NCBI RefSeq assembly: GCF_020991375.1
Contig: NZ_JAJLQZ010000001.1
Span: forward strand, 434,001-498,000
DNA from: Glycomyces amatae
GTDB lineage: Bacteria > Actinomycetota > Actinomycetes > Mycobacteriales > Micromonosporaceae
Reading direction: 5' to 3'
Length of the DNA: 64,000 nt
The notes beneath the pieces were generated by a model. It was not told the origin of the DNA. It made no database searches and saw nothing but the letters and a program-made list of their open reading frames with translations. The translations under genes and the position numbers were made by a program. Shown one piece after another: positions 44,051 through 64,000 of the stretch (the first letter of the stretch is position 1; every line of letters begins with the position of its first letter).

Positions 44051-45313
44051 TCAGGATTGCAGCAGTCCGGCTTCCTTCGCCGCCTTCAACGACGGCTTCA
44101 CCGTGTGCGTGGGCCCGACCAGCGACGACACCGCGTCCAAAGTCTTCAGACCCTCTCCGGTGTTGTAAATGACGGTTTCCGCCTCCGGGTCGAGCTGCCC
44201 CGACTCCAGGAGCTTACGGAGCGTAGCGACCACGACGCCGCCTGCCGTCTCAGCGAACACACCGGTCGTCGCGGCGAGAAGCTTCACGCCGTCGCGGATC
44301 TCGTCGTCGGAGACCTTCGCCATCCCGCCGCCGGTCGAGCGGCACGCCTCGATCGCGTAGGGCCCGGCCGCCGGGTCCCCGATGTTGAGGCTCTTGGCGA
44401 TCCCGGTGGGCTTCACGGGCGTGATGACGTCGGTCCCGGCGCTGTAGGCGTCGGCGATCGGGCTGCACCCGGCCGACTGCGCGCCGAAGACCCGCACCTT
44501 CCCCGGCTCGGTCAGGCCGATCTGGGCCGACTCCTCGAACGCCTTGTGGATCTTGGTGAGCAGCTCGCCCGAGGCCATCGGGACCACGACCTGCTCGGGC
44601 AGCCGCCAGCCGAGCTGCTCGGCGACCTCGTACCCGAGCGTCTTGGAGCCCTCGGCGTAGTAGGGGCGGATGTTGACGTTCACGAACGCCGTCGACTCGA
44701 ACTCGTCGGTCTCGGTCAGCTCCGAGCACAGGCGGTTGACGTCGTCGTAGGAGCCCTGCACCGCGACCAGCTCGCCGCCGTAGATCGCCGACTGCACGAT
44801 CTTGCCCGGCTCCAGGTCGTGCGGGATGAACACGATCGACGGGATGCCCGCGCGGGCCGCGTGGGCGGCCACCGAGTTCGCCAGGTTCCCCGTCGAGGCG
44901 CACGCGAACCGGTCGAAGCCCAGCTTGACCGCGGCCGACACGGCGGTGGAGACCACCCGGTCCTTGAACGAGTGCGTCGGGTTCGCGCTGTCGTCCTTGA
45001 CCCACAGCTTCCTCATGCCCAGGGCCTTCGCGAGGTGCTTCGCGTCGATGAGCGGGGTCAGGCCCGGATCGAGGCTGACGCGGTCCTCGGGGTGGACGCC
45101 GACCGGCAGCAGCGGCGCGTAGCGCCAGAGGTTCTGCGGGCCGGCCTCGATCCGCTCGCGCGTGACCTTGGCGAGCTCGTCGAGGTCGTAGTCGACCTCC
45201 AGGGGGCCCCAGCACTGCCAGCAGGCGTGCTGGGCGACCAGGTCGTAAGTGGTGTCGCAGTTGCGGCAGACGAGTCCCTTGGCAGGGCTGTCGGCAAAGA
45301 GCGAGTTGGACAT
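44051..45313 (-). CDS. thrC: Threonine-synthase-family PLP enzyme under a SAM riboswitch
   Basis: 420 residues. An N-terminal zinc-ribbon-like segment (VCRNCDTTYD...ACWQCWGPLEVDYD) is followed by the beta-family PLP domain: PLP Lys in NPTHSFKDRVVSTAVS, phosphate-binding ACASTGNLANSVAAHAARAG and YNTGEGLKTLDAV. The classical reaction is O-phosphohomoserine to threonine plus phosphate. The start was set at ATG 45313 for GAGGAG upstream. A SAM-I riboswitch immediately precedes it, which is unusual for threonine synthesis. A sulfur-related role such as homocysteine formation from O-phosphohomoserine is conceivable but unproven. Possibly a second thrC, as no hom or thrB is near. Confidence 0.88.
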   Translation of the reverse strand: MSNSLFADSPAKGLVCRNCDTTYDLVAQHACWQCWGPLEVDYDLDELAKVTRERIEAGPQNLWRYAPLLPVGVHPEDRVSLDPGLTPLIDAKHLAKALGMRKLWVKDDSANPTHSFKDRVVSTAVSAAVKLGFDRFACASTGNLANSVAAHAARAGIPSIVFIPHDLEPGKIVQSAIYGGELVAVQGSYDDVNRLCSELTETDEFESTAFVNVNIRPYYAEGSKTLGYEVAEQLGWRLPEQVVVPMASGELLTKIHKAFEESAQIGLTEPGKVRVFGAQSAGCSPIADAYSAGTDVITPVKPTGIAKSLNIGDPAAGPYAIEACRSTGGGMAKVSDDEIRDGVKLLAATTGVFAETAGGVVVATLRKLLESGQLDPEAETVIYNTGEGLKTLDAVSSLVGPTHTVKPSLKAAKEAGLLQS

Positions 45314-45328
45314 GCGAGAAGGCTCCTC

Positions 45329-45443
45329 CCTCATCTTCCCCGCGAGAGCGGGCCGGAATTGGCACCTGCCGCTCGGCCTCGAAGGCGAGCCGGTGGTTGC
45401 CGCAGCGTCGCAGGGCCGGACCCCTCAGCTGCTCTGGATGAAG
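45329..45443 (-). promoter_or_regulatory. SAM-I (S-box) riboswitch
   Basis: Read on the minus strand, the P1 5' strand CTTCATC pairs with GATGAGG at the 3' end. Between them stand S-box core elements: AGAGCAGCTGAGGGG, the GGCCC segment, GCGGCAACC, then a P3 hairpin (CGGCTCGCCTTCGAGGCCG) and GGTGCCAATTCC with its closing P4 (CCCGC/GCGGG) and GGAAGATGAGG. P1 ends directly at the GAGGAG ribosome-binding site of the downstream gene, so control of translation initiation is more likely than transcription termination. Confidence 0.92.
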
Positions 45444-45587
45444 TACGAGCCGAATGCTACGGGTGTGCCAGGTGCAACCGCAACTGGCGTTCCAGGTTTC
45501 GAGACGGCGCCGGGCTCCGGGACTCCGTGCTCTGCCAGGTCACGCCCGCACCGGGGCGTGAATCGATCGTTGTCTGTCGGTGATCCG

Positions 45588-63840: not shown

Positions 63841-63985
63841 CGCCTCACGAGTCGCGGTTCACACTGCGGCTCGCATCGCAGCGCAGGGCCGCGCACCTCC
63901 GGTTCCGGTCCCGACCTGCGGTGACAACCGCCTTTTACCACGGATCGTCTGGCACGTGCCTGCCAGTGAAAGGGACCACAACATC

Positions 63986-64000
63986 ATGGCGACAGTGACC
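63986..64000 (+). CDS. Start of a gene leaving the window
   Basis: ATG at 63986 with AAAGGGA about 11 nt upstream gives MATVT before the edge. This N-terminus is common among UgpC/MsmK-type sugar ABC ATPases of actinobacteria, but five residues cannot establish identity. Confidence 0.5.

Follow-up and report, generated by a model that had tools for sequence, protein, structure and literature searches.

The question raised by this locus is why a gene for a threonine-synthase-like enzyme in Glycomyces amatae stands behind a riboswitch for S-adenosylmethionine (SAM). The gene, here called thrC2 and its product ThrC2, lies in a 64,000-nucleotide stretch of contig NZ_JAJLQZ010000001.1 (positions 434,001 to 498,000; the whole stretch is referred to as the window). 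An earlier note on this DNA had proposed either that O-phosphohomoserine flux is balanced against SAM or that this paralogue makes a sulfur product such as homocysteine. After analyzing the leader RNA, the protein and the gene neighborhoods of relatives, we find that ThrC2 is best read as an enzyme of the methionine branch and not as an ordinary threonine synthase, with its product, its substrate and the binding of SAM predicted from sequence. It is probably a homocysteine synthase that takes its sulfur from a carrier protein and that SAM would shut off at translation through the SAM-I element.

The leader RNA of thrC2 is confirmed as a SAM-I riboswitch aptamer and not a chance fold, and it presumably binds SAM. 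The complete core described in the earlier note is present, with all three of the motifs it quoted, and the covariance-model scoring it had proposed (SAM-I and SAM-IV) returned RF00162 (SAM-I) at 73.0 bits (E value 3.5e-15), above the gathering score of 44.4 bits and with model positions 1-108 all covered. SAM-IV belongs to the same Rfam clan as SAM-I; a SAM-IV identity was dropped, as the best match within the clan was RF00162 and only the best clan match was kept. No second SAM-I element was found by Rfam in the whole Glycomyces genome (6.17 Mb, 68 contigs). When 24 ThrC2-linked aptamers were laid on the structure taken from the Rfam alignment of the window element, 89.7% of cells were paired and 15 of the 32 pairs had changed on both sides. 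Neither the pairing value nor the double-change count was reached by any of 500 shuffled controls, and sliding the partner columns by 1-3 lowered the pairing to 39-44%. The folding energy of the leader gave no signal (z 0.58). Within the genus, GGGAGGAGCCTTCTC is conserved in 20 of 21 Glycomyces leaders, the exception being that of locus L020.

The leader thus resembles SAM-I (RF00162) in all 108 model positions, in the core motifs, in helices P1 to P4 and in its covarying pairs; unlike it, the leader controls a paralogue of the threonine synthase type where one would expect a named methionine gene, and its P1 helix abuts the ribosome-binding site. The 3′ strand of P1 (GAUGAGG) runs straight into GAGGAG, which starts at the very next base, just as the earlier note had described (Table 1). 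A scan of the leader found no terminator-like site. Therefore, control at translation is the likely mode, and we suggest that SAM-I control of ThrC2 acts in this way and in the OFF direction. A consensus scan of the leader found no promoter; a TARCAT hexamer stands right before the aptamer in all 20 of the 21 Glycomyces leaders that reach that far.

Table 1. Features of the thrC2 locus, in window coordinates
Feature	Position	Strand	Basis
SAM-I (S-box) aptamer	45328..45444	-	Rfam RF00162, 73.0 bits; covariation in 24 ThrC2-linked sequences
P1 helix, 5′ strand CUUCAUC	45437..45443	-	Rfam alignment, pair counts
P1 helix, 3′ strand GAUGAGG, adjoining the ribosome-binding site	45329..45335	-	Rfam alignment, sequence
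Shine-Dalgarno GAGGAG, presumed translational expression platform	45323..45328	-	Sequence
Putative -10-like hexamer TAGCAT, just 5′ of the aptamer	45454..45459	-	Sequences of Glycomyces leaders
thrC2 gene (ATG at 45313), 420 residues; threonine-synthase-fold pyridoxal phosphate (PLP) enzyme with N-terminal four-cysteine motif	44051..45313	-	TIGR00260, tree, AlphaFold

The pairing of this RNA with this gene extends well beyond the window. Among 56 named loci, 28 actinobacterial ones were scanned whole, and SAM-I was found upstream of ThrC2 in all 28; another 19 Glycomyces loci were inspected by eye alone. The same arrangement occurs in a Chloroflexota locus (L066) and in a genome of the window's own family (G204). 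Where the place of SAM-I was listed for a genome that carries ThrC2, it was directly upstream of ThrC2 in 56 of 62 genomes and not so in the other 6. Two Frankia-group loci (L053 5692-5753 and L055 5693-5754) gave SAM-I matches of 62 bases at 44.7 bits, barely over the threshold; the matches are only 62 bases long, and therefore much of the aptamer is shortened there.

SAM-I also stands before other genes in the phylum. Its 30 best SAM-I loci (L077-L106) comprise 19 before ThrC2, 9 before metK (L078, L081, L085, L087, L089, L093, L099, L100 and L102), 1 before metX and 1 before a homocysteine S-methyltransferase/methylenetetrahydrofolate reductase; among the 19, L094 holds a ThrC2 fragment, and L077, L097 and L098 were assigned from ThrC2 match positions. 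Five target proteins (L078, L085, L105, L123 and L082) were checked against NCBIfam and all exceeded a cut-off (metK 579 and 565, homocysteine methyltransferase 506.5 and 661.6, MetX 462.8); the remaining targets were identified by reading the sequence. One additional locus, L130, yielded no gene call. One target at first considered to be metH was rejected, since NCBIfam identified it as the homocysteine S-methyltransferase/methylenetetrahydrofolate reductase. Apart from ThrC2, then, the SAM-I targets seen are methionine or SAM genes (metK, metX and homocysteine methyltransferase).

As the earlier note had stated, the gene under the switch belongs to the threonine synthase family. ThrC2 passes TIGR00260 with 252.3 bits (cut-off 167.1), and its AlphaFold model (predicted local distance difference test score 91.1) has threonine synthases as its top Protein Data Bank (PDB) matches. 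Its closest model is PRK08197, where it stays below the cut-off of 303 with 294.4 bits; of three other ThrC2 proteins, that of L066 passes (318.3), and those of L070 (288.5) and L115 (259.4) fail. Identity to proteins of named Glycomyces species reaches 96%. In a tree of 77 rows, built by a quick method without bootstrap and with 19 near-identical Glycomyces rows left out, the ThrC2 proteins form a single clade (SH-aLRT branch support 100), distinct both from the six ordinary threonine synthases included and from a third group; long-branch warnings concerned mainly other rows. This third ThrC-like clade (group B, L178-L186, Actinomycetota) has 32-37% identity to ThrC2 and likewise lacks Thermus R160 and N188.

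ThrC2 therefore shares with threonine synthases (TIGR00260; PDB 1uim, 2d1f, 2zsj, 6cgq and 1e5x) the fold and the PLP lysine, which is conserved in 96 of 96 ThrC2 proteins. Unlike them, it lies in a separate clade, coexists with an ordinary ThrC and carries an extra N-terminal four-cysteine motif, three of whose cysteines are present in 96/96 and the fourth in 94/96. Residues T88, S155, R160 and N188 of the Thermus enzyme, invariant in the six ordinary enzymes and presumed to hold the substrate phosphate, correspond to L, N, Y and S in 96-100% of the 96 proteins, and R216, K254, K307 and C283 are new, being present in 94-100% (loci with fewer than 1,100 bases of ThrC2 were omitted from this comparison). 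The leaving-group pocket thus looks rebuilt, with new basic residues. Such changes would fit an enzyme whose nucleophile or substrate is new and, short of proof, argue against plain threonine synthesis.

The genome of G. amatae leaves room for such an enzyme. The earlier note had suggested looking for a second thrC in a hom-thrB operon, and an ordinary hom-thrC-thrB set is indeed found on contig C12, away from thrC2 (hom 528.4 bits, cut-off 205; ThrC 312.3 by TIGR00260, cut-off 167.1; thrB 234.9, cut-off 168.25). This set rules out ThrC2 as the sole threonine synthase; altogether, the genome encodes eight PALP proteins. As to the normal metB/metY/metX route, which the earlier note also wished to see checked, one strong PF01053 protein passes the cystathionine gamma-synthase (MetB-type) model (665.1, cut-off 513). 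No MetX was found in the genome, the best TIGR01392 match being a 34.5-bit piece compared with mostly 370-480 bits among the matches listed for other genomes of the phylum, and no MetA was found either. Of the PF01053 proteins, four strong and two weak, the four strong ones were scanned: none passes the O-acyl-homoserine sulfhydrylase models TIGR01326 or TIGR01325 (MetY type), and none a cystathionine beta-lyase model. Cystathionine beta-synthase is present (643.1, cut-off 510.25), and so is MetH (TIGR02082, 1015 bits for an 805-residue piece, cut-off 1010.85). The methionine pathway therefore has a gap that ThrC2 could fill.

Neighboring genes in relatives point to where the sulfur may come from. 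A profile was derived from seven CysO/MoaD-like proteins, including the L139 carrier. With it, 28 of the 30 top-scoring phylum loci proved to have a CysO/MoaD-like carrier 0-169 bases downstream of ThrC2; ten of these 30 loci belong to one Streptomyces-like genus, and the two that lack a carrier are those of the window's genome and of the other genome of its family. Among the named loci, a carrier lies within 1.1 kb in 12 of 56, several of the others ending at contig ends. No carrier was found near ThrC2 in L071, L072 or L075 (Acidobacteria, Chloroflexi and Acidobacteriota). Pfam placed all four neighbor carriers that were scanned in the ThiS family. Of 40 downstream carriers, 39 have a GG at or close to the C-terminus: it forms the very end of the protein in 29 and is followed by one to six residues in 10. 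The remaining carrier is cut off. In Streptomyces-like loci L115-L121, the order SAM-I, ThrC2, carrier, cold-shock-like, groEL-like was the same in 7/7 stretches, the last two genes having been named by eye. All Acidimicrobiales loci found (L060, L062, L063 and L064) carry SAM-I, ThrC2 and a carrier.

Sulfur-relay genes accompany the carrier in more distant phyla. A Planctomycetota locus (L070) holds ThrC2, a carrier, a ThiF activating enzyme (E1) and a cysteine-desulfurase-like Aminotran_5 protein, and a Bacteroidales locus (L068) has the same four with other genes interspersed. The Chloroflexota locus L066 encodes ThrC2, a NIL domain, a carrier, cysteine-synthase-type PALP genes, a ThiS-ThiF fusion and another carrier, and the Omnitrophota locus L067 encodes a phosphoadenosine phosphosulfate reductase, a PALP gene, ThrC2, a carrier and a NIL domain. 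Small NIL-domain proteins beside or near ThrC2 were seen at L066 7261-7503, L067 8069-8311, L072 2019-2261 and L064 10848-11096 (Chloroflexota, Omnitrophota and Acidimicrobiaceae). NIL/ferredoxin proteins belong to the DUF39 homocysteine route (PMC5764234), hinting at a common sulfur-handling part. In the window's own genome, the sulfur-carrier genes are spread over several contigs, with a JAB-CysO-CysM-like cluster on C13, a MoeZ-like E1 of 390 residues on C16 (709.7 bits, cut-off 647) and a second MoaD-like protein on C68. On C68 (L111 7469-8895), the first base of a MoaD-like gene is also the final base of a 382-residue gene resembling a repeat or propeller protein.

We also considered how ThrC2 is distributed in the phylum. 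A draw of 396 Actinomycetota genomes, with ThrC2 called at a best E value below 1e-70, gave ThrC2 in 139, SAM-I in 199, MetX in 150 and MetA in 52; G315, a contig that carries just part of ThrC2 (4.3e-57), fell under the threshold and is not among the 139. The co-occurrence sets were compiled by hand from listings, their sizes match the tallies (199, 150 and 52), the ThrC2 set was checked as well, and their statistics ignore kinship. SAM-I was present in 110/139 ThrC2 genomes versus 89/257 others. MetX or MetA was found in 42/139 genomes with ThrC2 versus 158/257 without it (Fisher p 2.8e-9, kinship ignored), so that 97 of the 139 ThrC2 genomes lack both acyltransferases. The split is clean in the window's order, where family f2 has MetX in 14/14 genomes and ThrC2 in none, and the window's family has ThrC2 in 2/2 and MetX in none; the Streptomyces-like genus g8 has ThrC2 in 11/11 and MetX in 4/11. 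A further ThrC-like match at 1e-20 accompanies ThrC2 in 134/139 genomes, and this match is not always an ordinary ThrC: two of three in G127 are pieces of ThrC2, and the second in G275 is a group B protein. ThrC2 also occurs in Chloroflexota, Omnitrophota, Planctomycetota, Bacteroidota and Acidobacteriota.

Overall, we provide a putative mechanism. When SAM is plentiful, the SAM-I aptamer would close P1, which has the Shine-Dalgarno sequence right next to its 3′ strand, and translation of ThrC2 would be lowered; when SAM is low, ThrC2 would be produced. A carrier of the CysO/MoaD type would be adenylated and thiocarboxylated by the MoeZ-like E1, its sulfur would be passed to C4 of a PLP-bound activated homoserine to give homocysteine, and MetH would turn homocysteine into methionine. 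The activated homoserine would probably be O-phosphohomoserine, because thrB was found in the genome and genes for making acetyl- or succinyl-homoserine were not. In its widest form, the proposal is of a new homocysteine route in which a PLP enzyme of fold type II, descended from threonine synthase and controlled by SAM-I, swaps the phosphate of O-phosphohomoserine for carrier-thiocarboxylate sulfur. This route would be widespread in Actinomycetota, Streptomyces-like genomes and Acidimicrobiales among them, and ThrC2 is also present in five other phyla. We advance this wider proposal tentatively, as a nearly even call.

Two known systems resemble this scheme. Krishnamoorthy and Begley reportedly described in 2011 a protein-thiocarboxylate-dependent methionine biosynthesis in Wolinella succinogenes that uses a ThiS/MoaD-type carrier activated by an E1-type enzyme, with a JAB protein encoded in the same genome, as may be the case here; unlike a fold II enzyme of the threonine synthase type, the enzyme that uses the carrier there is said to be of the MetY type, with fold I. 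Carrier-dependent methionine work on Wolinella is cited in PMC5764234. The mycobacterial CysO/CysM system (PMC12910592) likewise combines a CysO-like carrier, a fold II PLP enzyme and a phosphorylated amino-acid substrate; in contrast to CysM, ThrC2 would carry out substitution at C4 and not C3 and would yield homocysteine and not cysteine, if our reading is right.

Of the two explanations offered in the earlier note, the sulfur-product paralogue has gained strong indirect support, from the carrier neighbors, from SAM-I on metK, metX and methyltransferase genes, from the missing acyltransferases and from the replaced residues, with the activity itself predicted; the balancing of O-phosphohomoserine fits poorly. 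Other explanations nevertheless have to be weighed. It is possible, but unlikely, that in Glycomyces-like lineages ThrC2 forms homocysteine from O-phosphohomoserine and free sulfide, the carrier being an aid that was lost or replaced there. No carrier was found beside ThrC2 in the Glycomyces (window included), Frankia, Jatrophihabitans and Micromonosporaceae loci, which favors free sulfide and weighs against the carrier-dependent enzyme that we prefer. However, the downstream carriers in the 28 of 30 best phylum loci, together with the CysO-like, JAB and MoeZ proteins that all occur in the genome itself, speak for a carrier.

Similarly improbable, in our view, is a genuine second threonine synthase that SAM lowers so as to balance O-phosphohomoserine between threonine and methionine. 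Such a balance fits poorly because a SAM OFF switch would shut ThrC2 at the time when O-phosphohomoserine should go to threonine, cutting threonine synthesis when SAM is plentiful, and because hom and thrB have an ordinary thrC beside them in another part of the genome. Plant threonine synthase is, moreover, activated by SAM; PDB 2c2b, whose title names an S-adenosyl ligand, is among the structure matches of the ThrC2 model. The replaced residues and the sulfur-carrier and sulfur-relay neighbors in relatives also disagree with plain threonine synthesis, although the TIGR00260 score over the cut-off, the threonine-synthase fold and the invariant PLP lysine are what one would expect of it, and divergent lineages can still make threonine, as a separate cyanobacterial ThrC lineage does (PMC12172450).

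We regard it as quite improbable that ThrC2 works like CysM or cysteate synthase, as a cysteine-type synthase that depends on a carrier and uses O-phosphoserine or some other substrate. The carriers are indeed of the CysO type, and the cysteate synthase model TIGR03844 gives a weak score (48.4 bits against a cut-off of 324.9), but the genome already holds a CysM-like protein with a CysO-like carrier, cysteine-synthase-like genes stand beside ThrC2 in L066 and L067, and SAM-I points to methionine and not to cysteine. Least probable of all is that MetB makes methionine from O-phosphohomoserine and cysteine as in plants while ThrC2, under the control of SAM, has a different role. Although the MetB-type enzyme is over its cut-off, the cystathionine beta-synthase score suggests reverse transsulfuration and no cystathionine beta-lyase was recognized among the four strong PF01053 proteins scanned.

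Several further observations weigh against a carrier-dependent homocysteine synthase of this kind. The cystathionine gamma-synthase could be the real methionine route if it accepted O-phosphohomoserine. O-Phosphohomoserine may not even be the substrate of ThrC2, because the replaced residues include the presumed phosphate binders, and the divergence of ThrC2 proves little by itself about its function, given the cyanobacterial ThrC mentioned above. MetX or MetA stands alongside ThrC2 in the 42 of 139 genomes noted, and both acyltransferases are also missing in 99 of the 257 genomes without ThrC2. The CysO and MoaD2 of this genome resemble the ThrC2-linked carriers to about the same degree (median identity 43% and 42%, respectively). 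Ligand-free folding of 22 leaders gave a mean P1 probability anywhere from 0.00 to 0.98. In 18 of 20 further loci, ThrC2 lies downstream of no known RNA family; 17 of these (L165-L176, L149, L153 and L155-L157) had been picked because the genome search had found no SAM-I, and the remaining one is L072. These loci could have another regulator, and five f17 loci among them retain the carrier gene. Elsewhere in the window, at its end, an msiK RNA (RF01747, 59.2 bits) lies at 63923-63981 on the plus strand, directly before an ATG at 63986.

An open-access literature search returned no paper in which a carrier-linked threonine-synthase paralogue is credited with making homocysteine, or in which a gene of this kind is described with SAM-I. 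The search left most subscription journals uncovered and is thus no proof of novelty. SAM-I itself is old, and carrier-dependent methionine synthesis is reported from Wolinella; the link to ThrC2 was not met in the literature searched. In the portions consulted, Seliverstov et al. (2005, PMC1262725) report that the methionine and threonine operons of Actinobacteria had no conserved RNA structure ahead of them, and Iyer et al. (2006, PMC1779556) list ThiS/MoaD gene neighborhoods and use the word threonine once, for a residue. SAM riboswitch pairs on hom are reported for Bacillota (PMC12452182). A cysH-thrC fusion in three Thermoplasmata assemblies (PMC11237513) ties an enzyme of the threonine synthase type to sulfate assimilation.

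Some prototrophic bacteria lack every known homoserine-activating enzyme for methionine, and Price et al. (2018, PMC5764234) count Acidimicrobium among those in which every known homocysteine route is missing. If ThrC2 does make homocysteine, this gap, which affects the methionine synthesis of many soil bacteria, would be closed, a sulfur-carrier pathway would be added to primary metabolism, and a large family would prove to have been wrongly annotated as threonine synthase.

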